From Buttiauxella izardii (GTDB lineage Bacteria > Pseudomonadota > Gammaproteobacteria > Enterobacterales > Enterobacteriaceae), in the NCBI RefSeq assembly GCF_003601925.1, contig NZ_QZWH01000006.1, positions 1 through 64,000 of the forward strand: a stretch of DNA of 64,000 nucleotides, read 5' to 3'. Within the stretch, counting starts at the first letter, position 1. The number at the start of each line of letters is the position of its first letter. The position numbers were made by a program, and so were the translations under genes. The notes under the pieces are model-generated. The model did not search any database, had not been told where the DNA came from, and saw nothing but the letters and a program-made list of their open reading frames with translations. Shown piece by piece: positions 12,699 to 43,141 of the stretch.

Positions 12699-12769
12699 GA
12701 TTTCTTCCCCTGTATGGCGGCGGTTTGGCAATCTCTGTTTTGCCAATCACATAAGCATCAGTGAATGCA

Positions 12770-12785
12770 TGCGTAACTGATGCCA
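12770..12785 (-). promoter_or_regulatory. Candidate sigma54 promoter of uacT
   Basis: The minus strand reads TGGCATCAGTTACGCA. It has the GG and GC dinucleotides at correct -24/-12 spacing, with TGGCA intact and TT of the -12 box changed to AC. It lies 72 bp upstream of the uacT start. Confidence 0.5.
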
Positions 12786-12883
12786 GGTTCTGGAAGAGGG
12801 GGAATTTGATTGCATTAGTGTGAAAAACATCACGTAACTGATTGTAATGACTGCGGAGCGCTAAATATTTCCCCTGAGTCATT

Positions 12884-12918
12884 TTATCAGTTTGATGTTT
12901 ATCGTCTCAGTTTGATAA
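12884..12918. promoter_or_regulatory. Putative activator (YgeV) site pair, uacT/uacF
   Basis: Two partly symmetric sites lie 20 bp apart: TTATCAGTTTGATGT (12884-12898) and GTCTCAGTTTGATAA (12904-12918). Each matches TTATCA-N3-TGATAA at 10 of 12 defined positions. They sit about 100 bp upstream of the uacT -24/-12 element and about 120 bp upstream of the uacF candidate, distances typical of enhancer sites. Assignment to YgeV is inference. Confidence 0.5.
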
Positions 12919-13036
12919 GCCAGGCCTCACTTTGCGTAGCCTGGCGCAGGCAGGATGTTTGTGTCGCCTCAATCGTGGGCGACATTCTTTGCAGTCGATC
13001 ACAAATTTAGATTTAGTCTGGTTTTCGCCAACAAAA

Positions 13037-13052
13037 TGTCCCTGTTTTTGCA
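13037..13052 (+). promoter_or_regulatory. Weak sigma54-like promoter of uacF
   Basis: TGTCCCTGTTTTTGCA has a perfect -12 box (TTGCA) but lacks the second G of the -24 GG. It lies 40 bp upstream of uacF. I list it because the shared upstream sites would serve both genes. Confidence 0.25.
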
Positions 13053-13091
13053 TTGCTGCAGATGAGTTCTGGCTTTCAAAAAGGGATGTGA

Positions 13092-15535: not shown

Positions 15536-15537
15536 CT

Positions 15538-15570: not shown

Positions 15571-15573
15571 CAT

Positions 15574-16941
15574 TCAGATTGCCCATCCACCCGCGTAGAA
15601 AATGACTAACACCAGTGCAATCACAACGGTGCCAATATTTAACCGACGCCACTCATTAGAGCACACGCGCCCAACGACCAACGTCACGAATCCCAGCATA
15701 ATGCCGGTGACAATATTGCAGGTCAGCACGATAAACACGGCGCAAACCAACCCCGACATCGCATCCACAAAGTCATCGAAATCCAGTTTTGCCACATTGC
15801 TAAGCATCAACAATCCGACATACATCAGCGCGGGGGCGGTGGCATAGCCGGGGATCAAGAAAGCCAGTGGCGAAAGGAACAGGACGACTAAAAATAGTGC
15901 GCCAACCACCACGGCGGTTAGCCCTGTTTTCCCTCCCGCCGCGGTGCCTGCCGCAGATTCGATATAAACCGCCGCAGGAGATGCGCCCACCAACCCGGAT
16001 AAAATTGAGCTGACGGAGTCTGCGGTTAACGCTTTGCCACCATTGATAATCTGGTTGTTTTCATCCAGCAGATTTGCCTGCCCGGCCACGGCGCGTATCG
16101 TCCCGGTGGCATCAAAAACAGCCGTCATCACCAACGCCAGTACGCTTGGCAACACCATCGGTTGTAACGCGCCCATAATGTCGAGGCTAAAAATGAGTGA
16201 CTTGCCGTCCTCTCCGCTCAGGCTGGGTAACGCGACCAGACCGTGATATTGAACGGCGGGGTCAAAAATCAGGCCGATAATAGAAATGGCGATGATGACC
16301 AGTAAAATCCCGCCGGGAACACGCAGTTTTTCAAGCCCCAAAATAACGGCCAGACCGAGTAACGTCATAATGACAGGGAAGGTAGTGAACCCACCGAGTG
16401 CCACAGGCAGGCCTTCAATCGGGTTTTTGATCACCAGCCCCACGCCACTGGCGGCAATTAACAACAAAAACAGGCCAATCCCAATGCCTGTCCCGTGAGC
16501 AATCCCCATCGGTAGATTACGCAACAGCCAGGTTCGCACCCCCGTTACGGAAATGGCAGTAAACAGCACCCCCATCAGGAACACGGCACCCAAAGCAACG
16601 GGAACGCTAATGTGTTGCCCTAATACCAGACTGAATGCCGTAAAGGCGGTGAGTGAAATTGCACAGCCGATCGCCATCGGCAAATTGGCCCACAGCCCCA
16701 TTAATAATGAGCCGAACCCCGCTATCAGGCAGGTTGCGACAAAGACCGCGCCTGGGGGAAACCCGGCTTTCCCCAACATGCCCGGGACGACTATCACTGA
16801 ATAAACCATGGCTAAAAATGTAGTGGTGCCTGCCAGCAACTCCTGGCGAACACTGCTGCCGCGCTTTGAAATGCAGAAATAGCGGTCGAGTGCCCCTTTT
16901 TCCTGCATTGTTGCTGGTGCATCTGATGAATCGGTCGACAT
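15574..16941 (-). CDS. ghxQ: Guanine/hypoxanthine permease GhxQ
   Basis: This is an inner-membrane NCS2 transporter of the AzgA-like group; E. coli GhxQ (YgfQ) imports guanine and hypoxanthine with high affinity. The 455-residue product equals the E. coli length. Conserved stretches include [36 protein letters not shown] and [19 protein letters not shown], typical of AzgA-like permeases. The ATG at 16939-16941 follows AAGGAAAG; a frame extending 42 codons upstream overlaps guaD and is not used. It is the last gene of the ygfK-ssnA-ygfM-xdhD-xanQ-guaD-ghxQ run. Confidence 0.94.
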
Positions 16942-17008
16942 AATTCTTTCCTTATCAATGGTGTAGCAAATAGTTGGAAAGCGTTTCGCTGACGGTTTGT
17001 GCTGCTGG

Positions 17009-18325: not shown

Positions 18326-18351
18326 TTTTAATCCTTTGTCATTCATTGCAA

Positions 18352-19746: not shown

Positions 19747-19773
19747 CCGGACACTCCTGTCTCTACAGGTGAT

Positions 19774-19848
19774 GGTGGATGTCGCTTGCGCGAGTCCACC
19801 TTTGAACATCAAAACCGAAAGTCGGATAAGCGCCAGCGCCATCCGACA
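19774..19848. repeat. BIME between xdhD and xanQ
   Basis: Two REP units in head-to-head arrangement: 19774-19800 (GGTGGA...TCCACC arms) and 19821-19848 (GTCGGAT...ATCCGAC arms). They lie inside the likely operon and could set differential stability of the upstream and downstream mRNA. Confidence 0.7.
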
Positions 19849-19859
19849 CAATGACTGGC

Positions 19860-23503: not shown

Positions 23504-23530
23504 GTTTTCCTCTCTTTTCTCGAGCACTGA

Positions 23531-24859: not shown

Positions 24860-24861
24860 AA

Positions 24862-27800
24862 TCAGGCCTCCACTTTCCCTAACAGGTAGCGATGATGTTT
24901 ATGTACATGGCTGATAATTTTGCAGACATCGCCAAGCTCGTGTGGGATCTGGTGGAATTGACTGTCATCGTTGAGGGTTAACTGCCACTCCTGCTTATGC
25001 AGGCGAATGCTGATGTCATTGCCATCAACGTAGAAGCCAGGATTGCGGCTGTTGGAGAAGTCTTCCGGCAGGCTGAATACCGTTAATTTGTCGGTATATG
25101 GTTTGCCCTGCCACGGGCAGAATTGTGCGCAGTTGCCGCATTCATTGCAGAAAGCATCGAGGTGCAGCGTCTGGAAACGGTTCTGGAAACCAGGAACCGC
25201 AATAGAAACGTTGGCGCGGTTTGGGCAAACATCGACGCATTTACTACAGACGTAGTTGCATTCCAGGCAGCGTTCGGCCTCTTGTTTCACAAAGTTATTG
25301 CGGTCGTTTTTGCTCACCAGATTGACGGCAATCTTGCCTTTGCGCTGATACACCTGCTGCGGATCGACATTGCTGAAGTATTTGTCAGCGTGCCGTGAAT
25401 GAATGTTCTCGCGATACAAAATGGCATCAGTCGCGCGCCGCGCGGTGCCGATAGCCGCCACAATTGAAGACGGGCCACTTTGCACATCACCAATCAGGAA
25501 CAGGCCAGGTTTGGTGGTTTCGCCGGTGGCAGAGGCCACCGCAGGCCAGCCTTGTTCATCAAGCGGAACCCCCATCGCGGCCAGCGCTTCACAATCTTGC
25601 TGCTCGCCAATGGCGGTAATTAAGGCGGTGAAATGCAAGGTTTCGGTTTTATCAGAAGCCACCGGGCGGCGGCGGCCTGAGCTGTCGGCTTCGCCTAATT
25701 CCATCTTCCGTACGGTTAATGCGCCATCTTCGGCAAAGTGCTCCGGGTTCGTCAGGAACATAAATTTCACGCCATCTTCCAGCGCTTCTTCATACTCCTC
25801 GCGCCAGGCGGGCATTTCGCTGGCGGTGCGGCGATACAGCACGGTCACGTCTGTCACGCCCGGCACACGCAATGCAGCGCGCGCGCAGTCCATCGCAGTG
25901 TTGCCCGCGCCCACTACAGCAACGTGCTGACCGAGATTCAGTTTCACGCCGAGATTGTAGTCACGCAGGAAGGGGAGAGATTTGTAGACATTGCGGTTGT
26001 TTCCAGCCAGCTTCACGCCGCTGTTTTTATCCGTCCCGGTGCCGACCAGAACATAGTGGAAACCGTCATTTTGCAGTTGTTCAAAGGTCAAATCGGGCGA
26101 GCAGTTATATTCAAACTTCACGCCGTGGGCGGCGATAAAATCAATATCATGCTGGATAAGTTCACCCGGAATACGGAACTGTGGGATCACGTTTTTGACC
26201 ACGCCGCCCGCATTAGCTTCACGTTCGAATATTGTGACCTGATGCCCGGCGCGAGCCAGGAAGTAGCCTGCGGAAAGCCCGGCAGGGCCTGCGCCAATCA
26301 CAGCAACCGGGTGGCGATCGCCCGATCCGGCAGGTTTATGCCAGCGCTGTTTGTAACCTTCCCAACCTTTTTCCAGTGCGACCTTTTTGAGCTCACGGAT
26401 ATTCAGTGCGCTGTCATAATCCAGGCGCGTACAGTTGCTTTGGCACTGGTGGTCGCAAATATGGCCGGTGATAGCCGGGAGCGCATTGCGTTGGTAAATC
26501 ACTTCCAGCGCATCGGTATAACGCCCTTCGCCCATCAGGCGGATGTACTCAGGAATATCTTGTTTTACGGCGCAGGCGGTGACGCAAGGTGCGACATAGC
26601 AATCGGTGAGGGGCAACGGGCCGCCCGCATCAATCTTATCTTCGGACTTCCAGTGTTTTTGCGTGTACTCCATGCTGATAGCGCGCTTTGCCAGCGCTTC
26701 AAGACGCTCAACGTCAACCTGCATCAGCGAAGCAGCATTGGATTTTTCCAGCTCCTGCATGCAGTCGAGCATCCGTAAATAGCCGCCTGGTTTGAGCAAA
26801 TCAGTAGCCATCGTGATGGGGCGAATACCGGTTTCAAAAATATCGCGAACAGTGAATCGACTGGCCCCGCCGGAATAGGAAATGGGCAGCAGACCCTTAA
26901 AGGCTCGGGAAAGAACCGCCGCGACGTTTATCGACAGTGGGAACAGGGCGCGTCCCGACATGTACATTTCTTCGCCCGGTAACGCGCCTTTATTATTGAT
27001 AGTGCCTAAGGTGTTGGTTAATTTAACCCCGAATCCGAGCTGCTTTTCTTTCGCCAGCGCCATGAGTCGTTCGAGCATTTCCAGCGCCTGCTGGAGTTTC
27101 AGATCATGGCCAAATGACTCTTCCTTCAGCCCGATATAGTCAAAGCCACAGGTGTCCAGAATCTCTCTGACGCGCTGATAACCGAGCAGCGTAGGGTTGA
27201 GTTTGACGAAGGTATTCAGGTTTTTTTCTTCAAGCATGTAGCGGCAAATGGCTTCGATTTCGTCTGGAGGACAGCCATGCATGGTCGAGAGGGTAACGCC
27301 TTTGACCAGCGTTGCGGGGATGGACTCCGCAAGCTTTGCCAGCTCAGATTGACGTTCCGCCAGTAACGCGAAGCGGTTAATGAAAGCATCGTTTTGTAGC
27401 CACTGTTGCAGAATTTTGCGGTAACGTGCGAAATCGGGATGCGCCGAGGAATCCATCATCGAATGTATAAATTGCTGCATTGGCGGCTGGCGTATTCCCT
27501 CGAGGTTGTAACCGACACTCATATTGAAGATAAATGACTTCTGCGCACCGGCTGGCTGGGGTGAGAAGACCTTTTCCAGCAAATGGAGAATGAACCAGGC
27601 TTTAAGATATTCGTCGTAGGCTTTTGGCAGGGTAAATTCAGTTGACCATTCGGTATTAAAGGCTTCGTCTTCGGCATCAATACACGGTTTTTCGAGCTCA
27701 AGCCGGTCAAGAATTTGCACGGTTTTCAGTTCGATAAAACGCCCACCGGTTAACCAGGAGACAACAATATTCTGGGCTAATTGCGTATGAGGGCCAGCAG

Positions 27801-27972
27801 CAGGGCCGATCGGCGTTTCACAGGTTTCACCAAAAACATGAAATGTGGATGGGGAGTTTGCCCGATAAAACTGTTGAGCCGGAATTCCAAAGATTGAATT
27901 GCTCTGCTGAAACTCATCGAAAATTCGCGTCAATAGTTCCTCGAACGGAACAGGACGCATAATATCTCCCAT
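24862..27972 (-). CDS. ygfK: Large Fe-S flavoprotein oxidoreductase YgfK
   Basis: At 1036 residues, this is assigned to the selenate reductase-like YgfK family. Residues 1-450 resemble a flavin-binding barrel of dihydropyrimidine/dihydroorotate dehydrogenase type (GVTLSTMHGCPPDEIEAICR, GLKEESFGHDL, PISYSGGASRFTVRD). Residues 455-850 are GltD-like: CYVAPCVTACAVKQDIPEY, FAD fold HPVAVIGAGPAGLSAGYFLA, NADPH fold HVAVVGAGNTAMDCARAA. The C-terminal part has ferredoxin motifs CLECNYVCSKCVDVCPNRAN and CNECGNCAQFCPW. This is the layout of NAD(P)H-linked enzymes that reduce pyrimidine-like rings, so urate-ring reduction is a plausible role. It is the first gene of a seven-gene run with a sigma54-like promoter. 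Confidence 0.92.
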   Translation of the reverse strand: MGDIMRPVPFEELLTRIFDEFQQSNSIFGIPAQQFYRANSPSTFHVFGETCETPIGPAAGPHTQLAQNIVVSWLTGGRFIELKTVQILDRLELEKPCIDAEDEAFNTEWSTEFTLPKAYDEYLKAWFILHLLEKVFSPQPAGAQKSFIFNMSVGYNLEGIRQPPMQQFIHSMMDSSAHPDFARYRKILQQWLQNDAFINRFALLAERQSELAKLAESIPATLVKGVTLSTMHGCPPDEIEAICRYMLEEKNLNTFVKLNPTLLGYQRVREILDTCGFDYIGLKEESFGHDLKLQQALEMLERLMALAKEKQLGFGVKLTNTLGTINNKGALPGEEMYMSGRALFPLSINVAAVLSRAFKGLLPISYSGGASRFTVRDIFETGIRPITMATDLLKPGGYLRMLDCMQELEKSNAASLMQVDVERLEALAKRAISMEYTQKHWKSEDKIDAGGPLPLTDCYVAPCVTACAVKQDIPEYIRLMGEGRYTDALEVIYQRNALPAITGHICDHQCQSNCTRLDYDSALNIRELKKVALEKGWEGYKQRWHKPAGSGDRHPVAVIGAGPAGLSAGYFLARAGHQVTIFEREANAGGVVKNVIPQFRIPGELIQHDIDFIAAHGVKFEYNCSPDLTFEQLQNDGFHYVLVGTGTDKNSGVKLAGNNRNVYKSLPFLRDYNLGVKLNLGQHVAVVGAGNTAMDCARAALRVPGVTDVTVLYRRTASEMPAWREEYEEALEDGVKFMFLTNPEHFAEDGALTVRKMELGEADSSGRRRPVASDKTETLHFTALITAIGEQQDCEALAAMGVPLDEQGWPAVASATGETTKPGLFLIGDVQSGPSSIVAAIGTARRATDAILYRENIHSRHADKYFSNVDPQQVYQRKGKIAVNLVSKNDRNNFVKQEAERCLECNYVCSKCVDVCPNRANVSIAVPGFQNRFQTLHLDAFCNECGNCAQFCPWQGKPYTDKLTVFSLPEDFSNSRNPGFYVDGNDISIRLHKQEWQLTLNDDSQFHQIPHELGDVCKIISHVHKHHRYLLGKVEA

Positions 27973-28045: not shown

Positions 28046-28061
28046 TGCAAATATCGCGCCA
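28046..28061 (-). promoter_or_regulatory. Sigma54 promoter of the ygfK operon
   Basis: The minus strand reads TGGCGCGATATTTGCA, differing from TGGCAC-N5-TTGCA at one position and preceded by C as in the consensus. It lies 74 bp upstream of the ygfK start. This is the best -24/-12 match in the window. Confidence 0.7.
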
Positions 28062-28230: not shown

Positions 28231-28245
28231 ATATCATTTTGATAA
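28231..28245. promoter_or_regulatory. Putative activator (YgeV) site, ygfK/yqeC
   Basis: ATATCATTTTGATAA matches TTATCA-N3-TGATAA at 11 of 12 positions. It lies about 170 bp upstream of the ygfK -24/-12 element and only 16 bp before yqeC. A half-site TTATCA lies at about 28162-28167. Confidence 0.5.
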
Positions 28246-28261
28246 ACGCAGTGGAGAAAAA

Positions 28262-29074
28262 ATGCTTAATTCCTGCATCCCCGAACCTTTAAATTCACTT
28301 TTGGAAAATAAGAATAAACCTGATCAGAAAACCGCAGTGGTCAGCATTGTCGGGGCTGGAGGGAAAACGAGTACCTTATTTTGGCTGGCACGTGAATGTA
28401 TTCGCATTGGCCAGCGAGTGATTATTAGCACCACGACGCAGATGTATTTACCTGAAGAAAACATTCCCGTTCTGTTGTGCCACTCACCTGAAACGCTCCC
28501 TGATGCCGCTTTTTCTGCTCCCTGTGTTGCCTGCTTTGCAGGCTGGAACGCTGAAAAGGGGAAAGTGCTGGGTTTTGCGCCGCCACAAATCGACGCGTTG
28601 GCAAAGCGCAATATTGCCGATGTCCTTCTGATAGAAGCTGACGGGGCTCACGGTTTTCCGCTTAAAGCGCCAGCTTTGCACGAACCTTGCATAGCTGATA
28701 GCAGCGATTTCGTTATTGCTGTCATGGGTGGAGAAGCCATGGCGCAGCCTGTTGGGCCGCAAAATGTTCACCGCTGGCCTTTGTTTAGCGCAATAACGGG
28801 CTTGCAGGCGGGGGATCTTCTGGGCGCTGAAGCCTTGCAGCGTTTTATTAATCATTCGCAGGGGATGTTTAAACAGGCTCCACCGCAGGCGAAACGTATC
28901 TGGCTGATAAATAAAAGTTCTCATATTGAGAATCTCACCGACGTTCTGCCAGAACTTCTCAGCAGTGCCGGACTTGATGCGATCTGGCTTGGGTCCGTTA
29001 AAGAATTTCCACCGATAGCACACGTGTTACAGCGCGATGAATGCGCAGTTACGGATAAAAATCTGTTGAGGTAA
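28262..29074 (+). CDS. yqeC: Putative molybdo-hydroxylase maturation protein YqeC
   Basis: This 270-residue protein belongs to the YqeC family, associated with selenium-dependent molybdenum hydroxylases; biochemistry is unproven. A P-loop lies at residues 31-37 (VGAGGKTSTLFWLA), with a second conserved segment ADVLLIEADGAHGFPLKAPA, so a nucleotide-dependent enzyme is likely. Two bases separate it from yqeB, so the two form an operon divergent from ygfK. In E. coli mocA lies between yqeC and ygfK; here only 289 bp of non-coding DNA is found. Confidence 0.88.
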   Translation: MLNSCIPEPLNSLLENKNKPDQKTAVVSIVGAGGKTSTLFWLARECIRIGQRVIISTTTQMYLPEENIPVLLCHSPETLPDAAFSAPCVACFAGWNAEKGKVLGFAPPQIDALAKRNIADVLLIEADGAHGFPLKAPALHEPCIADSSDFVIAVMGGEAMAQPVGPQNVHRWPLFSAITGLQAGDLLGAEALQRFINHSQGMFKQAPPQAKRIWLINKSSHIENLTDVLPELLSSAGLDAIWLGSVKEFPPIAHVLQRDECAVTDKNLLR

Positions 29075-29076
29075 TC

Positions 29077-30714
29077 ATGAAAATTTTCGCAGAAGCAGCA
29101 AAACTGGAGCAGCAAAATAGCCCTTTTGCGCTGGCTCAGATTGTTGATTGTCGAGGCTCGACACCTCGTCATTGTGCGCAAATGCTGGTGCGCAACGATG
29201 GCAGCGTGATGGGCACGATAGGCGGTGGCATGATGGAACGCCGGGTGATTGAAGAGGCGTTACTGGCGCTTGCCGAACGTAAACCCCGGTTATTTCATGG
29301 GCGTATGGCGCGTAACGGCGAGGATGCGGTGGGCTCTGACTGTGGCGGCGCGATGACCGTTTATATTGATATTCATGGTTACAGCCCGCGTCTGGTATTG
29401 GTGGGGGCGGGGCATGTTAACCAGGCGATTGCCAAAGCGGCTGCGGCGCTGGATTTTAATATTCATGTGGCGGATGTGTATGCCGAAAATCTAAACCCCG
29501 ACAATTTCCCACCGGCGACCCGTTTACTTCACGCGGCGAGCTTCACCGAAGCCATTGAACAGTTGCAAATTGAACCGGAAGATTACGTGGTTATTGCTAC
29601 CAACAGCCAGGATAAAGAAGCGCTGGACTGCCTTATTCAGCGCCCCGTGAAGTACCTGGGTTTGCTGGCAAGCCGCCGTAAAACTCAAACTTTCCTCCAG
29701 CAATTGCGCACCCATTGTGTCCCTGAAGCAAAACTTGCCCGTTTACATGCGCCGATTGGTTTCAATATTGGCGCGGAAACACCACAAGAAATCGCCATTA
29801 GTATCCTGGCGGAAATCGTGCAGCACCGTCATCAAGCACCAGGCGGCCCGATGAAAGAAAAAGCAGCAGAAAAAGTGGGGCGGCTGGTGGTGATTCGCGG
29901 TGCGGGAGATATCGCGACTGGCGTTGCATTACGCCTGTGGCACTCAGGTTTCCGCGTCGTGATGTTGGAAATGGCACAGCCTACCGTTATCCGCTGCTCG
30001 GTGGCTTTTGCGCAAGCTATGTTTGATGGTGAAGTGACGGTCGAAGGTGTAAAAGCGCGCTTTGTTGCGAATGTGGATGATGTCCCCGCGGTATTACAAG
30101 CCGGTGTTATTCCGGTATTAGCCGATGAACAGGCGAGTTTGCTGCCTGTGCTGCAACCCGATGGGCTGGTGGATGCCATTCTGGCGAAAGTTAACAAAGG
30201 GACGCATCGTGGAATGGCTCCGGTCACTGTGGCCCTCGGCCCAGGATTTGAGGCCGGGAAAGATTGTGACGCAGTAATTGAAACAAATCGTGGGCATTAT
30301 CTGGGGCGGGTTATTTACCAGGGGCCAGCACAGGCCAACACCGGCATCCCGGGAAATATCAAGGGTGAAACCACTCGGCGCGTGATGCGTGCGCCCGTGG
30401 CCGGGAAAATACGTTGCTGCGTGAAGCTCGGCGATGTGGTGAATGAAGGGGATCTCGTGGCCTACATTGATGACACGCCGGTGATTGCGCCGTTGAGTGG
30501 CATGGTGCGCGGGTTGCTCAACGAGGGGTTGAGTGTCACCGTCGGTTTTAAAATTGGCGATATTGACCCGCGTGGACTGGAAGCTGATTTTACCACGGTG
30601 TCAGATAAAGCCCGCGCCATTGGCGGCGCGGTGCTGGAAGCGATGATGGCGTTACCGAGAAAACCGCAGCGAGTAAAGCAGGCAGTTGCCAGGGAAGTGG
30701 AGTTGGTGGATTAG
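29077..30714 (+). CDS. yqeB: Putative molybdo-hydroxylase maturation protein YqeB
   Basis: This is a 545-residue fusion-like protein. The N-terminal half is XdhC/CoxI-like, with IVDCRGSTPRHCAQMLV, GTIGGGMMERRVIEEAL and a Rossmann motif PRLVLVGAGHVNQAIAKAA. XdhC-type proteins hold the molybdenum cofactor and help sulfurate it. The C-terminal half (from about residue 268) is the YqeB-type domain with RGAGDIATGVALRLWHSGF and GPGFEAGKDCDAVIETNRGH. Cofactor maturation for XdhA/XdhD is the likely role. It is convergent with yqeA across a BIME. Confidence 0.9.
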   Translation: MKIFAEAAKLEQQNSPFALAQIVDCRGSTPRHCAQMLVRNDGSVMGTIGGGMMERRVIEEALLALAERKPRLFHGRMARNGEDAVGSDCGGAMTVYIDIHGYSPRLVLVGAGHVNQAIAKAAAALDFNIHVADVYAENLNPDNFPPATRLLHAASFTEAIEQLQIEPEDYVVIATNSQDKEALDCLIQRPVKYLGLLASRRKTQTFLQQLRTHCVPEAKLARLHAPIGFNIGAETPQEIAISILAEIVQHRHQAPGGPMKEKAAEKVGRLVVIRGAGDIATGVALRLWHSGFRVVMLEMAQPTVIRCSVAFAQAMFDGEVTVEGVKARFVANVDDVPAVLQAGVIPVLADEQASLLPVLQPDGLVDAILAKVNKGTHRGMAPVTVALGPGFEAGKDCDAVIETNRGHYLGRVIYQGPAQANTGIPGNIKGETTRRVMRAPVAGKIRCCVKLGDVVNEGDLVAYIDDTPVIAPLSGMVRGLLNEGLSVTVGFKIGDIDPRGLEADFTTVSDKARAIGGAVLEAMMALPRKPQRVKQAVAREVELVD

Positions 30715-31743: not shown

Positions 31744-31761
31744 CCTTTCCTCATTTGCCTG

Positions 31762-33153: not shown

Positions 33154-33170
33154 GATATGAACTCCGTAAC

Positions 33171-33196
33171 AACCCCGAAGGAAATCCTTCGGGGTT
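33171..33196 (-). terminator. Intercistronic hairpin ygeY-hyuA
   Basis: An 11-bp perfect stem (AACCCCGAAGG with CCTTCGGGGTT) and loop of 4 sit inside the 53-bp gap of an otherwise continuous gene run. On the minus strand the stem is followed by GTTACGG, a poor T-tract. Partial termination or mRNA stabilisation are both possible. Confidence 0.6.
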
Positions 33197-33206
33197 TTGG
33201 GTGAGG

Positions 33207-34424: not shown

Positions 34425-34468
34425 TTCTCTAACTCCCTTAATGAAACGTATCAGTGAACCGCAGTGGT

Positions 34469-35668: not shown

Positions 35669-35735
35669 AACCCAACCTCATTTAGCAAAAGACGTTTTGC
35701 TGGAGGAGACTCTGGCCCGTAGGCCAGAGGCCATG

Positions 35736-36926
35736 TTATTTAACGCGCTTAACGGCATCTTTCAGCAGTTTTTCAAGGACCTGACCGGGTTTGGCGTATT
35801 TGCGCGATAAGATCATCGCGGCGATGATGTAGGGCTTCCAACTGGCTTCTTTGTAGGTTTCGATGCGGTATTTTTCAAATACACCTTCGGTGACTTCGCC
35901 TTCTTTACAAGACACGCCGGAAATATCAGCAGGCAAGCAGTGCATGTAAAGTGCTTCGCCGCCGCGAGTCAGCTTCATCATCTCTTCGGTGCAATGCCAG
36001 TTTTTGTGGTTTGCGTTTTGCGCCAGGCACTGTTGTTCCAGTGCTTTCAGGCCGTCGTGATCGTTGGCGCGCAGCAGAGTGGTGCGCTCTTCCATGACTT
36101 TATAAGGCGCCCAGGATTTTGGATAAACGATATCGGCATCTTTAAACGCCTCTTCCATCGAGTTGACCTGGCGGAAGCTGCCGCCGGAAGATTTGGCATT
36201 GTTTTTAGCGACTTCCACCACATCGGGTATCAACTCATAACCGTCTGGATGAGCCAGCGTGACGTCCATACCAAAGCGGGTCATCAAGCCGATGATGCCT
36301 TGTGGAACCGACAGCGGTTTGCCATAGCTTGGGGAGTAGGCCCAGGTCATGGCGATTTTTTTGCCTTTGAGGTTTTCCAGTGAGCCAAAATGCTCACGCA
36401 GCCAGGCGAGGTCAGCCATAGATTGCGTTGGGTGATCGATATCGCATTGCAGGTTTACCAGCGCAGGGCGCTGAGGCAGCACACCTTCTTCGTAACCTTC
36501 ATCCAGAGCGGCACCCACTTCACGCATGTAAGCGTTACCCGCGCCGAGGAACATGTCATCGCGAATACCGATGGCGTCCGCACAGAAGGAGATCATGTTG
36601 GCGGTTTCGCGCACGGTTTCGCCGTGGGCAATTTGTGATTTGCCTTCGTCGAGGTCTTGTTGCGCCAGCCCCAGCATGTTCAGCGCGGAAGCATAGGAGA
36701 AACGAGTACGGGTCGAGTTATCACGGAAAACCGAGATCCCTAAACCGTTGGTAAATACGTTGGTAGCAATGTTATCGGCACGCATGGATTTCAGTGCAGC
36801 GGCGACGTCAAGGACTTGCTTGAGTTCATCCGGACTCTGTTCCCAGGTTAACAGGAAGTCCTTTTCATGAAGATGAGAGTTAAGTTTGCTGAGATCTTTA
36901 ATTAAATCATTAATCGTTTTCATCAA
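35736..36926 (-). CDS. ygeW: Knotted carbamoyltransferase YgeW
   Basis: This 396-residue member of the ATCase/OTCase superfamily has the trefoil-knotted fold. The carbamoyl phosphate site is DNSTRTRFSYASALNMLG, and HCLPADISG provides the second motif. The E. coli protein does not use ornithine or aspartate. In purine degradation it is proposed to run in reverse, phosphorolysing a ureidopropionate to diaminopropionate and carbamoyl phosphate for YgeX and YqeA. It is the first gene of the five-gene run. A sigma54-like promoter lies about 84 bp upstream. Confidence 0.93.
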   Translation of the reverse strand: MMKTINDLIKDLSKLNSHLHEKDFLLTWEQSPDELKQVLDVAAALKSMRADNIATNVFTNGLGISVFRDNSTRTRFSYASALNMLGLAQQDLDEGKSQIAHGETVRETANMISFCADAIGIRDDMFLGAGNAYMREVGAALDEGYEEGVLPQRPALVNLQCDIDHPTQSMADLAWLREHFGSLENLKGKKIAMTWAYSPSYGKPLSVPQGIIGLMTRFGMDVTLAHPDGYELIPDVVEVAKNNAKSSGGSFRQVNSMEEAFKDADIVYPKSWAPYKVMEERTTLLRANDHDGLKALEQQCLAQNANHKNWHCTEEMMKLTRGGEALYMHCLPADISGVSCKEGEVTEGVFEKYRIETYKEASWKPYIIAAMILSRKYAKPGQVLEKLLKDAVKRVK

Positions 36927-37009: not shown

Positions 37010-37025
37010 AACAATAAGTATGCCA
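37010..37025 (-). promoter_or_regulatory. Candidate sigma54 promoter of the ygeW operon
   Basis: The minus strand reads TGGCATACTTATTGTT. The -24 part TGGCA is good; the -12 box is TTGTT instead of TTGCW. It lies 84 bp upstream of ygeW. The missing -12 C lowers confidence. Confidence 0.4.
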
Positions 37026-37181: not shown

Positions 37182-37240
37182 TTATCAGAAGCTTGTTCTC
37201 AAAATTGATAACAACGTCGGGTCAATTATCAATTTGATAA
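37182..37240. promoter_or_regulatory. Putative activator (YgeV) site cluster, ygeW/ygeV
   Basis: TTATCAATTTGATAA (37226-37240) is a perfect 15-bp palindrome and the best copy of the motif. A second near copy, with a 4-base spacer (TCAAAATTGATAA), lies at about 37198-37210, and a half-site TTATCA at 37182-37187. The cluster is about 170-230 bp from the ygeW promoter-like element and about 180 bp before ygeV, so autoregulation is also possible. Confidence 0.55.
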
Positions 37241-37420: not shown

Positions 37421-39208
37421 ATGATGGCTGTAAATTCTCAGTCGGTTCTGATGCAGATCCAACCGACAATCATCCGCTTCGCTAAGATGCTGGCAAGTGT
37501 ACTGCAACTGGAAATCGAGATTGTTGATGTCAACCTGGTGCGCGTGGCAGGCACCGGCCCTTTTGCCAGATCCCTGGGCCGCAAGCTAAACACTAATTCA
37601 CGTCTATTGAAGCATGTTATTGAATCAAAGAAAGAAAAGGTTGTCACTCAGTCAGGCGTTGATCCTATCTGTGAAGGATGTACAGATAAGCAAAATTGCC
37701 GTGAAAAAGCCTTCCTCGGTACACCGGTCATTTTTCAGAACTCTTGCGTCGGCGTGATTAGCCTTGTTGCCCTTAACGGTGAGCAGCAGGAACGAATAAA
37801 ACACAACTTACGCGAATTTTCTGATTATGTTCAGCATATCTCTAATATCTTTATTTCCCGTCTTCTCGAAGATCAGAGCGGGGATAGTAACGCCAGCGGG
37901 ATTCTGTTAAGTCTTATTGATAATATGGACCAAGGGGTATTGATTCTTGATAAAAATAATCAGTTAAAATTTGCGAACCCGGTCGCATTAAAAATACTAA
38001 AATCCACTCATGAGCAACTGATGGGGAAAACGATTTCTGCCCGGGCGCTGACTTTTCAGAATTCTTTTACCAGCGGCCATATGCAATATATTATTTCTAT
38101 TGACGATCATAGCGAAATAATTATCGGGCAATTGCTGGCGGTGCAAGAAAACCAAATGTTTTTAATGGCCTTCCATCAATCGCATACCGTTATCAACACG
38201 GAACTGAGTCATGAAGTTCCGCAGATTGAACATATCATTGGTGAATGCCAGCCGATGCTGGCATTAAAGCGATTAATAACCCGCATCGCGCCAGGCCCAT
38301 CGAGTGTGATGATTACCGGTGAAAGTGGCACCGGTAAAGAAGTCGTAGCATGGGCGATTCATAAGCTCAGTCACCGTAATGACAAACCCTTTATTGCGAT
38401 TAACTGCGCGGCTATTCCGGAACAATTATTGGAAAGCGAACTGTTTGGTTACGTTAAAGGCGCTTTTACCGGGGCTTCGACCAATGGCAAGCAAGGGCTG
38501 ATTCAGGCCGCCGACCACGGAACACTGTTTCTTGATGAAATTGGTGATATGCCGCTGGTTATTCAGGCCAAATTGCTCCGCGCCATTGAAGCGCGAGAGG
38601 TGCAGCCAATAGGTTCCAGTAGGCCCATTGCGGTCGATATTCGTATTATCTCTGCCACCAATCAGAACCTGGAAAAGTATGTTGCCGAGGGGAAATTTCG
38701 CGAAGACCTCTATTACCGTTTGAATGTCATTCCGGTCATATTGCCGCCCCTGCGGGAGCGCAAAGAGGATTTGTCTTTGCTGATTCATTATTTTCTCAAT
38801 TTGCACACTAAGCGTATCGGGCTGGTTTATCCGGGTATCGCTCCTGATGTTATGGCGCTGCTGGCGGCGTATCAATGGCCGGGAAATCTGCGTGAGTTAA
38901 GTAACATGATGGAATACCTGGTCAATGTGGTTCCGTCCGGTGAAGTGATCACTACTTTGCTATTGCCGCCGAACATGGTTAATCAACGGCACAATGTGGT
39001 TGTTTTGAATAAAGAGCATGCCGAACAAGTTAACGACCACAGTGAACTCACGGAGCATGGCGTGCATGCCCTTGAAGAAATGGAAAAACAGCTTATTGCC
39101 GAAGCCCTGGTCCGCCACGGTAATAAGAAACTCGCTGCGGATGAACTGGGAATAGGGATTGCGACCCTGTATCGCAAAATAAAGAAGTATGAACTGCGCT
39201 CCGCCTGA
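37421..39208 (+). CDS. ygeV: Sigma54-dependent transcriptional activator YgeV
   Basis: This 595-residue enhancer-binding protein probably controls the purine block. The N-terminal sensor region (1-150) has a conserved cysteine cluster CEGCTDKQNC (Cys84, Cys87, Cys93); a PAS-like domain follows (about 160-255, DNMDQGVLILDKNNQLKFAN). The AAA+ domain has Walker A GESGTGKE (300-307), the sigma54-contact loop GAFTGA (347-352) and the Walker B stretch GTLFLDEIGDMP. The Fis-type helix-turn-helix ends the protein (KLAADELGIGIATLYRKIKK). A second ATG one codon downstream is equally possible. The ligand is unknown; a purine or redox signal is plausible. Confidence 0.93.
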   Translation: MMAVNSQSVLMQIQPTIIRFAKMLASVLQLEIEIVDVNLVRVAGTGPFARSLGRKLNTNSRLLKHVIESKKEKVVTQSGVDPICEGCTDKQNCREKAFLGTPVIFQNSCVGVISLVALNGEQQERIKHNLREFSDYVQHISNIFISRLLEDQSGDSNASGILLSLIDNMDQGVLILDKNNQLKFANPVALKILKSTHEQLMGKTISARALTFQNSFTSGHMQYIISIDDHSEIIIGQLLAVQENQMFLMAFHQSHTVINTELSHEVPQIEHIIGECQPMLALKRLITRIAPGPSSVMITGESGTGKEVVAWAIHKLSHRNDKPFIAINCAAIPEQLLESELFGYVKGAFTGASTNGKQGLIQAADHGTLFLDEIGDMPLVIQAKLLRAIEAREVQPIGSSRPIAVDIRIISATNQNLEKYVAEGKFREDLYYRLNVIPVILPPLRERKEDLSLLIHYFLNLHTKRIGLVYPGIAPDVMALLAAYQWPGNLRELSNMMEYLVNVVPSGEVITTLLLPPNMVNQRHNVVVLNKEHAEQVNDHSELTEHGVHALEEMEKQLIAEALVRHGNKKLAADELGIGIATLYRKIKKYELRSA

Positions 39209-39271
39209 TTCTATTTCAGGCAGAGCGGGCAAGGGGAGTGGGTGCCAGATGAGCCTCTCTCCCCCTGCAAT

Positions 39272-39754
39272 TTACGGCTTTTCGATTTCGCACTTCTGAA
39301 CCGCATCCACAACCATCTGGTAACCCGTGCAGCGGCATAAATTCCCCGCCAGACCCTGGCGGATTTGCAGCACCGTCATGGGTTGGCTGCGCGGTTTTGC
39401 CAGCAACGCGGTGGCTGCCATGATGAAACCTGGCGTGCAAAATCCGCATTGTACTGCGCCACTTTCAGCAAAGGCTTGCTGAAGTGAGGAAGGTTTCCCC
39501 TTCACCCCTTCGCCTTCTACGGTACGAATAACTTTACCCTGCGCCCAAATGGCTAAGTAAAGGCAGCTATCAATCGCGGTGCCGTCAATTAATACCGTGC
39601 AGGCACCGCATTCGCCGACGCAGCAACCTTGTTTGATACTGAGAAAACCTAGCGCGCGTAATGCATCGGATAACGGCATGGCGGGGGAAGCGTTAAATTG
39701 AAAGTTTGCGCCGTTAATTTTGCAGTTGATGGTTTTGTTATTCATTGCGCTCAT
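39272..39754 (-). CDS. xdhC: Xanthine dehydrogenase, [2Fe-2S] subunit
   Basis: This small iron-sulfur subunit of 160 residues carries two [2Fe-2S] clusters. The plant-type cluster ligands are Cys44, Cys49 and Cys52 ([15 protein letters not shown]) with Cys64; the second cluster uses Cys103 and Cys106 (QCGFCTPG) with Cys140 and Cys142 (NLCRCTGYQ). It passes electrons from the Mo site of XdhA to the FAD of XdhB. The start at 39754 overlaps the xdhB stop by 4 bases and has a GGAGGGG ribosome site. It converges with ygeV. Confidence 0.95.
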
Positions 39755-40629
39755 TGAATTTCCCCTCCAGCCTGTTTCACCGCCAATTCGATAACCCGCT
39801 TTGTCAGCGTACTAATCAGATGTAAACGGAAAGATTTTTCCGCACGCCAGGATGTTCTCGGTGAAACATCTTTTGCCACCGCCTCCGCGATAAAAGCCAG
39901 AGTATGTCGAGTTAACGGTTGCCCGAATGCGGCCTGTTCTGCATGAGTGCAGCGCACAGGCGTTGGTGCGGCGACACCGAAAGCCAGTTTGATTTCCCGG
40001 AAGCGGCCCGCGTCTATTTCACACAAGGCACTACAGCCAATGGTTGAAATGTCCATGGCATCGCGCATCGCGTATTTGAAACTTGCCGCTACTTTGTTGC
40101 GGTAATTTTCTGGCTTGAAATGGAAGGCCACCAGCACTTCACCGTGGGCTAACGCCACTTTGCCAGGCCCGGTATGAAAACCGTTAATCGAGGTAAAGCG
40201 GGTGCCTTGCGGCGTGGCAATTTCCAGTTCGGCATCGTAAATCAGCGACGGGCAGGCTGAGTCTGCGCTGGTGGCACCATTGCAGATGTTACCGCCATAG
40301 GTGGCGACATTACGGATTTGTGGCCCGGCGATAACGGACGCGGAGGCTGCCAGCGCAGGAAGGTGATTTTGCACTAGCGGATGCTCAATGAGTTCGCTAA
40401 ATGTGGTGCCAGAGCCAATGCGAATATGACCGGTGTCACTGCATGTCACTCCGCGCAATTCGGGTAAATCATGGATATCTACAATATGGCGAAAACGGGC
40501 GTTGAGATGATGGAGTTGAATCAGTACATCGGTCCCTCCAGCGAGCAGGCGGGCCTGATCGTCTTCCATTAAAAGTGCAACGGCGTGCGCGACGCTCCCG
40601 GCATGGTAGTAACGTTCAATGTCATACAT
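39751..40629 (-). CDS. xdhB: Xanthine dehydrogenase, FAD-binding subunit
   Basis: This medium subunit of 292 residues belongs to the FAD-binding CODH/xanthine dehydrogenase family. FAD loops: [15 protein letters not shown] and [20 protein letters not shown], the latter the classic TxGGN-x-xxA motif. It takes electrons from XdhC and passes them to NAD. It lies four bases after xdhA and overlaps xdhC, so the order xdhA-xdhB-xdhC is one translationally coupled operon. Confidence 0.96.
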
Positions 40630-40633
40630 AGCA

Positions 40634-42940
40634 TTATCCTTTTATCAGCCCGGCCTCGACGAACTCCTGAAACAGGCGTTTTGGCGTGAGAGGAAGCGTG
40701 TTGATGGCAACGCCCGTCGCCATGCGCACGGCATTACGAATGGCGGTGGCAGGGGAGATAATCGGCGGTTCGCCCAGCGCTTTATGGCCGTAAGCCGACT
40801 GCGGCTCATCAGTCTGAATAAAGGCACATTCCAGCGTCGGCAGATCGGGCATGGTCGGCATTTTGTAGTCCAGCAAGTTGGGGTTTCGCACCACGCCGCT
40901 TTGCTCATCAACGATGATTTCTTCAAAAAGTGCCCAGCCAATCCCCATACCCATCCCGCCATGAACCTGGCCTTCTGCCAGAATCGGGTTAAGAATTTGC
41001 CCCGAATCATGCAGGTTTAAGATGCGGTTGATGGTGACTTTACACAGCGGGATATCCACGGTGACGTCCACAAAGGTGCAGCCATAGGTTGGCGGATTAG
41101 TCTGGGTTTTAAAGGAAGATTCTGCCGAAAGTTGCCCGCCTTGTTCCGGGTGGTAGAACGTGTGCATGGCAAGGTCTGCCACGCTCAGCAAAGCGTGTTC
41201 CGGACGTGTTTCCAGCACGATATTGCCATCAATAATCGTCAGGTTCATTTCAGGAAGATGCAGCATTTGTGAGGCGTGATGGAGGATTTTTTGCCGTAAT
41301 ATTTGGGCCGCCTCACGCAAGGCCGGTGCGGTGACATAGCTTTGACGCGAGGCAAATGCCCCAGGGTCAAACGGGGTGATGTCTGTATCCTGAGTAGAGA
41401 TGGTGTGGATCATTTCAAACGGCATGCCGATGGTCTGGGCGACCATTTGCGCAAAGACGGTATCGGCACCTTGCCCGACTTCCGTGGCTCCGCTTTGCAG
41501 ATTGATGATTCCGTCCTGGTTGAGCACTAAACGCACGCTGGCAATTTCGACGCCAACCGGCCAGGTGTTCGAGGTATAGCTAAAACAGGCCACGCCAACG
41601 CCGCGCCGCACATCCCCCGAAGTTTGCAAACAGGCCGCTTTACGTTCATCCCATGCGAAGCGTTCACGCCCTTTTTGCAGGCATTCTATTAACCCGGCGC
41701 TGTAAATTGGCCTGTTGTATAGGGTGTTGATATCACCTTCGCGAGCGGCATTGAGAATACGGATATCTACCGGGTCGATGTTTAAGGCACACGCCGCATC
41801 GTCCAGTAATGATTCCAGAGCAAAGATGACCTGCGGCGCGCCATACCCGCGCATGGCCCCCGCAGCCGGAAGGTTGGTGTAGACGGTTGTAGCGTGGAAA
41901 CCGTAGGCGCTGCGCGGATAAAGCCAGGAGATTTTACTGCCCGCCGCCGCTGCAATTGAATGCCCGTGGGAGGCGTAAGCGCCAGTGTTGGACAGAATAT
42001 CTAATTCAAATCCTTTTAAAACGCCCTCGGTTGAGAGGCCCAATTGCGCATCAATATGGAAAGCATGACGGGTGCGAGAGGCAAAGAAACACTCTTCGCG
42101 GCTGATTAACACTTTGACTGGAATGCCGCCCAGTTTTAACGTCAGAAATGCCGCCATGGGCTCTTCCAGCACATCCTGTTTATTGCCAAAGCCGCCGCCA
42201 ATATAAGGCTTTATCACGCGTATTTTTGACCACGACATGTTGAGTGACTGCGCGACAATGCGGCGCACGATATGCGGAATTTGGGTACTCGAGATAATCG
42301 TGATGCGGTCGGGCTGTTCCATCCAGGCAAAACAGGTGACGCCTTCCATATGGCAGTGTTGCACAACAGGAGTTTTAAAGCGGCCTGAGAACTTGTGATC
42401 CGCAGCCTGCATGGCGGCAGTAGGGTTGTTGGTTGCGGCTTCGCTGCGTTTGAGCAGATTGCCGCCAGCATGAATCGCGGTGGCATCGTCGGCCAGCGCC
42501 GCTTCGGGTGAGGTGATTACGGGCAATTCTTCCCAGGTGACTTCCACCGTTTCAGCCGCTTTTTGCGCCGTGAGTTCATCACGCGCCACGACAATAGCCA
42601 CGGCATCGCCGAAATGCCGCACGTGTTGTGTCAGCAAACGGCGGTCGGCAATGTCCTGTTTGGCAGGGTCGAGCGTCCAGGCATGGCCCGCCGTGGCGAA
42701 GGCGATATCCGGCACATCTTCCCAGGTAAATACGGCAACGACACCGGGGATTTCAAGCGCTGCGCGGTAGTCAATGGCACGGGCATATCCGTGGGCGATG
42801 GGGCTGCGAACGTATTTGGCATAGCACATGCCGGTCATCGGGATATCGTCGGTGTATCTGGCTTGCCCGGTGACTTTGGCAAGCGCATCGACTCGCAAGC
42901 AGGGCAATCCTAATGGTGTATTACCCATTCTTTCTGACAT
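40634..42940 (-). CDS. xdhA: Xanthine dehydrogenase, molybdenum-binding subunit
   Basis: This large subunit of 768 residues hydroxylates purines (hypoxanthine to xanthine, xanthine to urate) at a molybdenum centre. Cofactor-binding segments: IRVIKPYIGGGFGNKQDVLE, GAMRGYGAPQVIFALES and VGQGADTVFAQMVAQTIG. The catalytic glutamate sits in HKALGEPPIISPATAIRNA. In E. coli the enzyme family depends on MCD made by MocA, whose gene is not in this cluster. It is the first gene of xdhABC, with a sigma54-like promoter 55 bp upstream. Confidence 0.96.
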   Translation of the reverse strand: MSERMGNTPLGLPCLRVDALAKVTGQARYTDDIPMTGMCYAKYVRSPIAHGYARAIDYRAALEIPGVVAVFTWEDVPDIAFATAGHAWTLDPAKQDIADRRLLTQHVRHFGDAVAIVVARDELTAQKAAETVEVTWEELPVITSPEAALADDATAIHAGGNLLKRSEAATNNPTAAMQAADHKFSGRFKTPVVQHCHMEGVTCFAWMEQPDRITIISSTQIPHIVRRIVAQSLNMSWSKIRVIKPYIGGGFGNKQDVLEEPMAAFLTLKLGGIPVKVLISREECFFASRTRHAFHIDAQLGLSTEGVLKGFELDILSNTGAYASHGHSIAAAAGSKISWLYPRSAYGFHATTVYTNLPAAGAMRGYGAPQVIFALESLLDDAACALNIDPVDIRILNAAREGDINTLYNRPIYSAGLIECLQKGRERFAWDERKAACLQTSGDVRRGVGVACFSYTSNTWPVGVEIASVRLVLNQDGIINLQSGATEVGQGADTVFAQMVAQTIGMPFEMIHTISTQDTDITPFDPGAFASRQSYVTAPALREAAQILRQKILHHASQMLHLPEMNLTIIDGNIVLETRPEHALLSVADLAMHTFYHPEQGGQLSAESSFKTQTNPPTYGCTFVDVTVDIPLCKVTINRILNLHDSGQILNPILAEGQVHGGMGMGIGWALFEEIIVDEQSGVVRNPNLLDYKMPTMPDLPTLECAFIQTDEPQSAYGHKALGEPPIISPATAIRNAVRMATGVAINTLPLTPKRLFQEFVEAGLIKG

Positions 42941-42994
42941 GGTTTTGTCTCCATCCTCAGGAATAAGGTCACGCTTCGTTTAGTTCCTGAGTGA

Positions 42995-43010
42995 AGCAAG
43001 ATGCACGCCA
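42995..43010 (-). promoter_or_regulatory. Sigma54 promoter of xdhABC
   Basis: The minus strand reads TGGCGTGCATCTTGCT. The -24 TGGC and the -12 TTGCT are intact with exact spacing. It lies 55 bp upstream of the xdhA start. Confidence 0.6.
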
Positions 43011-43107
43011 GTGATCGGCATTGGTCATTTTTAATGACAGCAATGTGATTTCCATTGGAAAACAAGGTTTTGTACAGGCAAAGGGAAGGGGCAATCAGAG
43101 GTTTTTT

Positions 43108-43141
43108 TTCTCACAATGATAGCGGGCGCTCATTATGATAA
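43108..43141. promoter_or_regulatory. Putative activator (YgeV) site pair upstream of xdhA
   Basis: Two imperfect copies of TTATCA-N3-TGATAA: TTCTCACAATGATAG (43108-43122; 10 of 12) and CGCTCATTATGATAA (43127-43141; 9 of 12). They lie about 100-130 bp upstream of the xdhA -24/-12 element. The rest of the 269-bp xdhA-flgN gap shows only a weak stem (43157-43191) that may end flgMN transcription. Confidence 0.4.

Follow-up and report, generated by a model that had tools for sequence, protein, structure and literature searches.

Introduction

Urate-degrading bacteria of the gut affect the uric acid of their host. In Escherichia coli the reductive urate pathway is established and its enzymes have been assigned recently; the same article notes that a Crp site lies in the ygeV-ygeW intergenic region (PMC12507026). 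The E. coli genes xdhABC, ygeWXY, hyuA, ygfK, ssnA, ygfM, xdhD, ygfT, and uacT, and also ybiY and rcsB, make up the YgeV iModulon (PMC12132413, there cited to PRECISE 2.0), which has been termed uric acid iModulon (PMC11408624). Here we analyze a stretch of 64,000 nucleotides of Buttiauxella izardii (genome size 4.77 Mb), called the window in the following, which carries a purine cluster with the gene for the sigma54 activator YgeV. We describe in it palindromic boxes that are very probably the upstream activator sequences (UAS), or enhancers, of YgeV, binding of YgeV to these predicted sites being inferred from sequence. The gene set of the YgeV iModulon is nearly the regulon predicted here; the iModulon is a co-expression set, unlike a regulon defined by boxes, and the available part of its description gives no site or promoter (PMC12132413). 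An in vitro study observed binding of RpoN holoenzyme to the ygeV-ygeW region, and its list of 12 E. coli enhancer proteins omits YgeV (PMC8743547). The accessible portion of a sigma54 regulon survey of 2025 does not mention these purine genes (PMC12316311).

In Clostridiales, a DioR regulon has been computed as a sigma54 regulon with its own motif and with its function listed as unknown (Nie et al., 2019; PMC6615313). As in the window, UAS and -24/-12 elements occur there at homologs of window genes, namely at dpaL-pyrC-argE, tdcF, yqeB, pbuX, and ygeW-ygfK-ssnA-ygeY, and most UAS sites in that study lie 100–250 bp upstream (PMC6615313). For Clostridioides difficile, SigL-type promoters are listed upstream of four genes, with DioR1 or DioR2 named for them: dpaL1, tdcF, pbuX, whose start is mapped, and dpaL2, which is at 0.3-fold when sigL is mutated (PMC7438776).

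An earlier, sequence-only reading of this DNA had proposed a motif TTATCA-N3-TGATAA, not known to have been described, through which YgeV would coordinate uacT, uacF-ygfS, the ygfK run, the ygeW run, and xdhABC. Its novelty stands insofar as our literature searches, with subscription papers mostly outside their scope, found no published YgeV binding site; it does not extend to the wider system, as DioR has a published computed regulon with a motif (PMC6615313) and most of the E. coli regulon corresponds to the YgeV iModulon (PMC12132413). Known in part are thus this iModulon, the binding of RpoN at ygeV-ygeW in vitro, and the computed DioR regulon; new are the enterobacterial box with its phasing, the proposed link between YgeV and DioR, and, as a fifth site, the one within yqeC ahead of yqeB.

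Predicted YgeV boxes in the window

The consensus of the boxes is the palindrome TTMTCA-N3-TGAKAA, which occurs singly or as pairs 19–29 bp apart. The predicted sites, to which no strand is assigned, are the following.

37226..37240, predicted YgeV box TTATCAATTTGATAA, the main ygeW site and possibly a site for ygeV too; strict match; matrix score 21.2, the best of the window with the window held out
37196..37211, weaker partner site TTCTCAAAATTGATAA with a 4-base spacer, within 37182-37240; a second site 29 bp off recurs in relatives
28231..28245, predicted YgeV box ATATCATTTTGATAA, the ygfK site; matrix score 19.0
28918..28932, predicted YgeV box TTCTCATATTGAGAA within the coding sequence of yqeC, some 150 bp ahead of yqeB; matrix score 17.9
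12884..12898, predicted YgeV box TTATCAGTTTGATGT, uacT site 1; matrix score 15.1
12904..12918, predicted YgeV box GTCTCAGTTTGATAA, uacT site 2, 20 bp from site 1; matrix score 13.3
43108..43122, predicted YgeV box TTCTCACAATGATAG, xdhA site 1; matrix score 13.7
43127..43141, predicted YgeV box CGCTCATTATGATAA, xdhA site 2, 19 bp from site 1; matrix score 13.2

The sites that had been reported at 12884, 12904, 28231, 37226, 43108, and 43127 are all present and exceed chance, and the copy at 37226, described as a perfect palindrome, indeed has perfect 7-base arms; the site inside yqeC had been missed. With up to two mismatches, the plain pattern matches ten places in the window versus 1.71 expected, a number that none of 100 shuffles reached. 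Five of the ten lie in the regions previously claimed and a sixth (28918) is conserved; the remaining four (27723, 28896, 44740, and 58025) score below 11 with the matrix. The site at 43127 has three mismatches to the plain pattern and hence stands outside the ten. Exactly two copies of the strict form TTMTCAWNWTGAKAA exist in the 4.77-Mb genome, both within the cluster, and allowing up to one mismatch gives seven places, three of them in the cluster.

The palindromic matrix was trained only on the DNA upstream of ygeW from genomes other than the window (62 sites; ygeW is present in 34 genomes including the window), and no uacT, ygfK, xdhA, or yqeB site entered the training. Over the 64 kb, its seven top-scoring non-overlapping hits (13.2 to 21.2) comprise all six sites claimed before plus the one in yqeC, and the eighth hit scores 10.8; the score of the ygeW site is not fully independent because two close congeners belong to the training set.

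Conservation of the boxes in the family

The comparison set consists of 37 assemblies, i.e., the cluster from 35 other genomes of the family (25 with about 40 kb and 10 with about 20 kb), E. coli K-12, and the window. A blind search for any dyad with 4-base arms and a spacer of 0–14 in the ygeW-ygeV intergenic regions (or 600 bp before ygeV if ygeW is missing) ranked ATCA-N3-TGAT first, in 17 of 37 regions, and the top dyad in each of ten shuffled sets reached 4–6. Third came ATAA-N14-TTAT (15/37), and among 5-base arms GATAA-N14-TTATC was second (14/37), the latter being a pair of boxes 29 bp apart.

At a matrix threshold of 13 and within 450 bp of the gene, an upstream box is found for ygfK in 31 of 35 genomes, for uacT in 20 of 23, and for xdhA in 9 of 13, and also for uacF, which has its intergenic region in common with uacT (18/19), as well as for ygeV (37/37) and ygeW (34/34), both of which represent the training region. 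XdhA-like genes of less than 40% identity possess an upstream box in 10 of 16 cases. The motif, which had been predicted to recur upstream of homologous genes elsewhere, thus does so at ygfK, uacT, xdhA, and ygeW. For eleven internal genes (yqeA, hyuA, ygeY, ssnA, ygfM, xdhD, xanQ, guaD, ghxQ-like, xdhB, and xdhC) the count is 0 of 263, and column-shuffled matrices give mean hits of 0.42 at most. Four further genes have a box in 12 of 101 cases, distributed over ygeX (3/37), ygfS (4/21), yqeC (3/22), and mocA (2/21), and the cases traced reflect a shared divergent intergenic region or a moved site: in the ygeX and ygfS hits the gene is placed first at a divergent intergenic region, and the yqeC hits, in the window and two mocA-less congeners, are the ygfK site.

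Genome-wide, 18 of the 36 cluster-bearing genomes were scanned and contain 51 copies of the strict form, 23 of them within the 20–40 kb surrounding ygeV, a span of about 0.8% of a genome, with a reversed-pattern control of 2; in 15 genomes of the family without ygeV match there are 10 copies, with a control of 2. Chance as the source of the boxes is rejected by the window counts, the blind dyad search, the held-out scan, the genome-wide counts, and the cross-genome hits.

Promoters, spacing, and helical phase

The -24/-12 elements predicted earlier were located exactly where they had been placed when the reverse complements were read. They and the genes that head the respective runs are listed below.

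12770..12785, minus strand, -24/-12 element TGGCATCAGTTACGCA of uacT; score 9.7; has ACGCA
28046..28061, minus strand, -24/-12 element TGGCGCGATATTTGCA of the ygfK run; score 18.5; near the sigma54 consensus; 190 bp from the site center
37010..37025, minus strand, -24/-12 element TGGCATACTTATTGTT of the ygeW run; score 9.6; TTGTT in place of the usual TTGC
42995..43010, minus strand, -24/-12 element TGGCGTGCATCTTGCT of xdhABC; score 17.2; near the sigma54 consensus
11337..12746, minus strand, uacT, urate permease; Pfam Xan_ur_permease; 78% identity to the K-12 uacT locus
24862..27972, minus strand, ygfK, which heads the run ygfK-ssnA-ygfM-xdhD-xanQ-guaD-ghxQ-like (15574-27972)
35736..36926, minus strand, ygeW, which heads the run ygeW-ygeX-ygeY-hyuA-yqeA (30811-36926); tblastn synteny with K-12; NCBIfam names for other genes of the run
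40634..42940, minus strand, xdhA, which heads xdhABC (39272-42940); tblastn synteny with K-12

A matrix approximated from the sigma54 consensus was used to compare the top-scoring element within 200 bp before each gene with the 95% level of shuffled DNA. Elements above that level precede ygeW in 33 of 34, ygfK in 33 of 35, xdhA in 13 of 13, and uacT in 19 of 23 genomes; the controls give 0/34 for yqeA, 1/22 for yqeC, 2/21 for ygfS, 2/15 for xanQ, and 3/18 for guaD. GG and GC are in register at ygfK, xdhA, and uacT, and ygeW keeps GG and TTG and lacks GC.

Single or paired boxes are situated 118–221 bp upstream of the four promoters listed above, measured from the site center to the -12 element, and position, spacing, and helical phase are conserved; an earlier estimate of about 100–200 bp is therefore slightly low for ygeW. 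Among genomes these distances vary mostly by helical turns: 169–171 bp (11 genomes) and 190–191 bp (13 genomes) for ygfK, 119–120 and 138–141 bp for xdhA, 222–226 bp (18 genomes) plus 212 and 233–236 bp for ygeW, and 130–131 and 138–140 bp for uacT, with single genomes at 120, 150–151, 161–164, and 171 bp. Other single distances (117–118, 129, 145, 148, 150, 157–161, 203, 209–210, 245, 284, and 377) were all retained in the phasing test, in which the Rayleigh R over 29 merged distance classes peaks at 0.59 for a period of 10.4 bp (p 0.0004; 20,000 uniform random sets, periods 9–12.5 scanned), the classes not being fully independent because the genomes are kin. As evidence that boxes and promoters are working pairs, helical phasing is better than co-occurrence.

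Such phasing suits an activator, which bears on the proposal that the boxes are sites of Fur or of another AT-rich repressor and that the -24/-12 elements are driven by a different activator, for example NtrC. Some copies in relatives (TTATCATTATGATAA) do resemble parts of a Fur box. However, the best matches of the boxes to the 19-base Fur consensus are 9–11 of 19, with random stretches of the window having a 95% level of 11, and forms of the type TTCTCA...TGAGAA are unlike Fur. We regard this proposal as extremely improbable, and Fur as the binder was rejected on account of consensus matches at or below the random 95% level.

The regulator YgeV and the likeness to NorR sites

The regulator itself is encoded beside the best box.

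37421..39208, plus strand, ygeV, sigma54 enhancer-binding protein with a GAF-like and PAS N-terminus, an AAA+ domain with GAFTGA, and a Fis-type helix-turn-helix (HTH)

Host YgeV is 69% identical to YgeV from K-12 and shows Pfam matches to Sigma54_activat (PF00158, E 1e-70), HTH_8 (PF02954, E 1.6e-13), and PAS_8. GAFTGA, which had been noted as the sigma54-contact motif, occupies residues 347–352 of the translation and is invariant in 11 aligned YgeV sequences, so that with an AAA+ sigma54-interaction domain and a Fis-type HTH the protein has the features of an enhancer-binding protein. All 34 YgeV C-termini that were read carry the HTH helix GIG[IV]ATLYRKIKKY; three further genomes (G087, G022, and G167) with the variant helix ISVATLYRKIKK have boxes of the form TTCTCA...TGAGAA. 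Within the N-terminal part, all 10 YgeV-like sequences compared, from three phyla, share C84, C87, and C93 (window 37670-37747, residues 84–109), and C109 is nearly invariant among enterobacterial YgeV, pointing to a possible metal or redox sensor. The modeled fold of the N-terminus has a GAF-PAS arrangement like that of regulators such as DhaR, with TM-scores of just about 0.3.

Among other sigma54 activators with a similar half-site, NorR (GTCA-N3-TGAC) is the first to consider. The K-12 norR-norV region contains CTGTCAATTTGACTA, TAGTCATTTTGACTA, and an imperfect TTGTCATATCGACCA upstream of TGGCACGCAATCTGCA, which we take to be the sites bound by NorR; two of these three enhancers of norVW share the TCA-N3-TGA core with the YgeV boxes, and the promoter is of the same -24/-12 kind. 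They differ at the outer position, where the NorR sites have G/C and the YgeV boxes A,C/T,G, and belong to another regulator and target. The outer G occurs in none of the seven window sites, and the YgeV matrix gives the three norV sites 10.8, 7.9, and 5.5, all below 13. Furthermore, the boxes follow the presence of ygeV and are found beside YgeV-like genes in other phyla. That another activator of this kind binds the boxes is accordingly very improbable; NorR as the binder was rejected by the outer base and the norV matrix scores, and its motif stays the nearest known one.

A box inside yqeC and its probable target yqeB

The gene downstream of the yqeC-internal box is the following.

29077..30714, plus strand, yqeB (XdhC/CoxI family); Pfam XdhC_CoxI and XdhC_C; likely target of the yqeC-internal site

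All of the 22 yqeC genes contain a box of at least 13 at the identical position, 0.80–0.81 of gene length, as compared to 1.5 expected from synonymous resampling with local codon usage, an expectation that holds for the resampled stretch alone, i.e., the best of each gene. The palindrome is kept while the encoded peptide varies: S..E codons produce TTCTCA...TGAGAA and Y..D codons TTATCA...TGATAA, so that both codons of a pair mostly vary in concert, and in two genes (G145 and G273) S and D codons are mixed. Shared descent may explain part of this conservation. If it is an enhancer, it would be an unusually well-conserved one within a coding sequence.

The yqeC-internal box most likely serves yqeB, a predicted maturation factor of molybdenum enzymes. 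A box lies within 450 bp before yqeB in 32 of 34 genomes, 22 times inside yqeC and ten times in the intergenic region common with ygfK, and some of these ten may serve ygfK alone. The ten belong to 12 genomes that have yqeB without yqeC; in 7 of these 12 (G016, G300, G188, G022, G230, G027, and G011) a -24/-12 element of at least 13.3 precedes yqeB, two of the seven (G300 and G022) being without a box of 13 there. Yqe​C-bearing genomes show no conserved -24/-12 element before yqeB, so that yqeB is only an inferred target of the yqeC site. For C. difficile, a SigL promoter is reported before yqeB and not before yqeC, and DioR is predicted to use it (PMC11448449).

The sequence TTATCGATTTGATAA occurs within xdhC-like genes of three distant genomes (L076, L091, and L092, i.e., G016, G230, and G027) and is perhaps another intragenic site.

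Sites outside the cluster and in other phyla

Outside the cluster there are 28 strict matches, 20 of which were read. A sigma54-like element of at least 11 within 450 bp, directed away from the box, accompanies seven of the 20 (L215, L220, L223, L224, L228, L229, and L231) and is missing from 13; the elements at L215, L223, L228, and L229 score 11.0–13.5. Genes were examined at L220, L224, and L231, their identities being read from translations. In G280 (L224), a box precedes an NCS2 (purine) permease with the element TGGCACATATCTTGCT at 71 bp; in G232 (L220), three boxes precede an NCS1 (nucleobase) permease with a weak element at 159, 182, and 296 bp; and in G301 (L231), paired boxes 29 bp apart precede a protein of three RidA repeats, with TGGCATGTTTTTTGCT at 108 and 137 bp. 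RidA proteins remove 2-aminoacrylate, which diaminopropionate ammonia-lyase would release. The RidA-repeat gene is without a match in the window genome, and its copy in G295 lacks a box of 13 upstream. The DioR list includes tdcF, a relative of RidA (PMC6615313). The box is thereby a means of finding more members of the regulon, and permeases and the RidA-repeat protein already emerge.

Among 80 loci retained from a search with a YgeV alignment for relatives beyond enterobacteria, boxes occur in several phyla. The ygeW-ygeV intergenic region of Photobacterium contains TTATCATATTGATAT. Between ygeV and ygeX of Psychrilyobacter there are three boxes and TGGCACAGAAATTGCT, and a Clostridia metagenome-assembled genome (MAG) has three boxes and TGGCATATTTGTTGCA ahead of ygeX. 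Desulfotomaculum copahuensis has five boxes at two places with a -24/-12 element at each; in a Clostridium MAG, boxes precede the permease genes. Strict matches at the locus, out of those in the genome, number 2/2 in D. copahuensis, 2/2 in Psychrilyobacter, 3/5 in the Clostridia MAG, 2/8 in the Clostridium MAG, 0/1 in Photobacterium, and 0/2 in Peptostreptococcus russellii, and the reversed-pattern controls are 0, 2, 2, 3, 0, and 5, respectively. Regulators L102–L106, which are 36–39% identical to YgeV and encoded beside ygeX or purine genes, have the box, in weaker form in L105; among L102–L114, the full-length relatives L109, L111, L113, and L114 have no site. In the class of D. copahuensis (113 genomes, best 30 YgeV-like loci), a site of at least 13 lies within 1.5 kb in 4 of the 5 top-scoring loci and in 2 of the 25 others, two of the four being of the weaker TTCTCG form.

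Three loci (L107, L108, and L110) combine a YgeV-like regulator carrying the cysteine motif with a neighboring SDH_alpha-domain gene and with box-like sites before -24/-12 elements, and judging from the domain of the neighbor they are probably cdsR-cdsB. The CdsR-cdsB system of Clostridium differs from that of YgeV in that it controls cysteine breakdown (PMC5767170).

Weighing the proposed regulon

We propose that the N-terminal GAF-PAS part of YgeV detects a purine (urate or a relative) and/or the redox state, and that the protein attaches to the boxes with its Fis-type HTH and oligomerizes, whereupon looped DNA would let it remodel the sigma54 polymerase waiting at the -24/-12 elements. Such remodeling at all promoters would turn on uptake and the reductive urate pathway together. 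The sigma54 enhancer code for urate degradation is real and conserved, is probably working, and is wider than first proposed. With slight preference we also favor a broader view, in which YgeV and clostridial DioR are one ancient regulator that reads TTMTCA-N3-TGAKAA and activates reductive urate degradation in Pseudomonadota, Fusobacteria, and Bacillota, the code of Enterobacteriaceae including an enhancer buried in yqeC, kept by selection on DNA, and activating yqeB. The putative link between YgeV and DioR is drawn from sequence (36–39% identity) and from similar gene neighbors at loci of Bacillota and Fusobacteria. With a box, a set of promoters, and a spacing rule defined, YgeV can be tested directly in E. 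coli K-12, and a function is suggested for the DioR group of clostridia, for which none was known in 2019.

Several observations speak against this picture. Kinship among the genomes inflates every k-of-n count, and upstream boxes remain below 13 in 4 of 35 cases for ygfK, 4 of 13 for xdhA (including K-12, 12.8), and 3 of 23 for uacT. In nearly all relatives, the ygeW promoter keeps TGGC and has TTG(T/A) at -12, which is atypical for sigma54. No canonical -24 (no GG) was found in the 19 uacF upstream regions, so that of the operons assigned to YgeV in the sequence-only reading, uacT, the ygfK run, the ygeW run, and xdhABC are upheld by conserved boxes, promoters, and phasing, and a sigma54 promoter for uacF-ygfS is unsupported. 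Neither ybiY of K-12, which is in the iModulon, nor aegA has a box, and YgeV has been named IsrR in enterohemorrhagic E. coli (EHEC), as an indole-linked regulator, with no xdh or ygeW mentioned in the available part of that article (PMC9426417). Some site of at least 13 within up to 21 kb is also held by 19 of 62 loci of other, more distant AAA+ activators, and single hits in AT-rich genomes therefore mean little; given this background and the boxless relatives, the cross-phylum argument is carried by tandem arrays and promoters. Finally, a third enterobacterial clade (L200–L212; 13 genomes, YgeV 36–39%) has the 3-base-spacer box in 0 of 13 genomes, two of which still reach 13 by matrix. A close recognition helix is kept there (10 of 11 fetched were readable), a -24/-12 element of at least 11.6 exists in 13 of 13 ygeX-ygeV intergenic regions, and the half-sites are separated by 4 bases in 11 of 13 (shuffled mean 0.07) and by 5–7 bases in 5–8 as well, as compared to a 3-base spacer in 36 of 37 of the main set (shuffled mean 0.03). 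This clade may represent a switch in spacing with the same half-sites and a similar recognition helix.

The unusual -12 elements at ygeW and uacT, the missing -24 at uacF, and scores that depend on the promoter would also fit real YgeV sites of which YgeV mainly uses those of one or two operons, the others being relics or minor. In contrast, all four operons retain sites and promoters in most of the genomes where they occur, and the YgeV iModulon places them together (PMC12132413). We therefore consider a restriction to few operons unlikely, and YgeV acting through its boxes at all four remains the preferred explanation. All 19 uacF upstream regions have a TTGCA at about -45 (window 13030-13060), which may represent a sigma54 variant or another promoter.

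Genomic setting of the cluster

The purine cluster of the window is chromosomal and, according to tblastn, syntenic with xdhABC-ygeV-ygeWXY-hyuA-yqeABC-ygfK-ssnA-ygfM-xdhD-xanQ-guaD-ghxQ-ygfST-uacT of E. coli K-12, minus mocA. In K-12 and many relatives mocA is located between ygfK and yqeC; a match to it is absent from the window, the congeners G295 and G301, and also G273 and G034. The lack of mocA in the window brings the ygfK box to about 16 bp before the yqeC start codon (28245-28262). Of 295 genomes of the family, 61 bear ygeV, and ygeX matches are confined to these, 60 of the 61 having one. The sole ygeV-bearing genome without it (G139, contig C67) encodes a YgeV of 375 residues without the sensor part, where a contig end is possible.

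With megablast, the ygeV stretch found only two matching E. coli genomes among 5426, at 73%. Within the genus, 5 of the 12 genomes searched, counting that of the host, carry such a ygeV, in two types of 86–100% and 52% identity. Beside the cluster, window positions 4663-9000 match E. coli records annotated mdtH and YceH, a chromosomal place unlike that in K-12, where the cluster ends at idi-lysS. Because the flank differs from that of K-12 and ygeV is found in only 5 of 12 congeners, these observations suggest that the purine cluster was gained horizontally.

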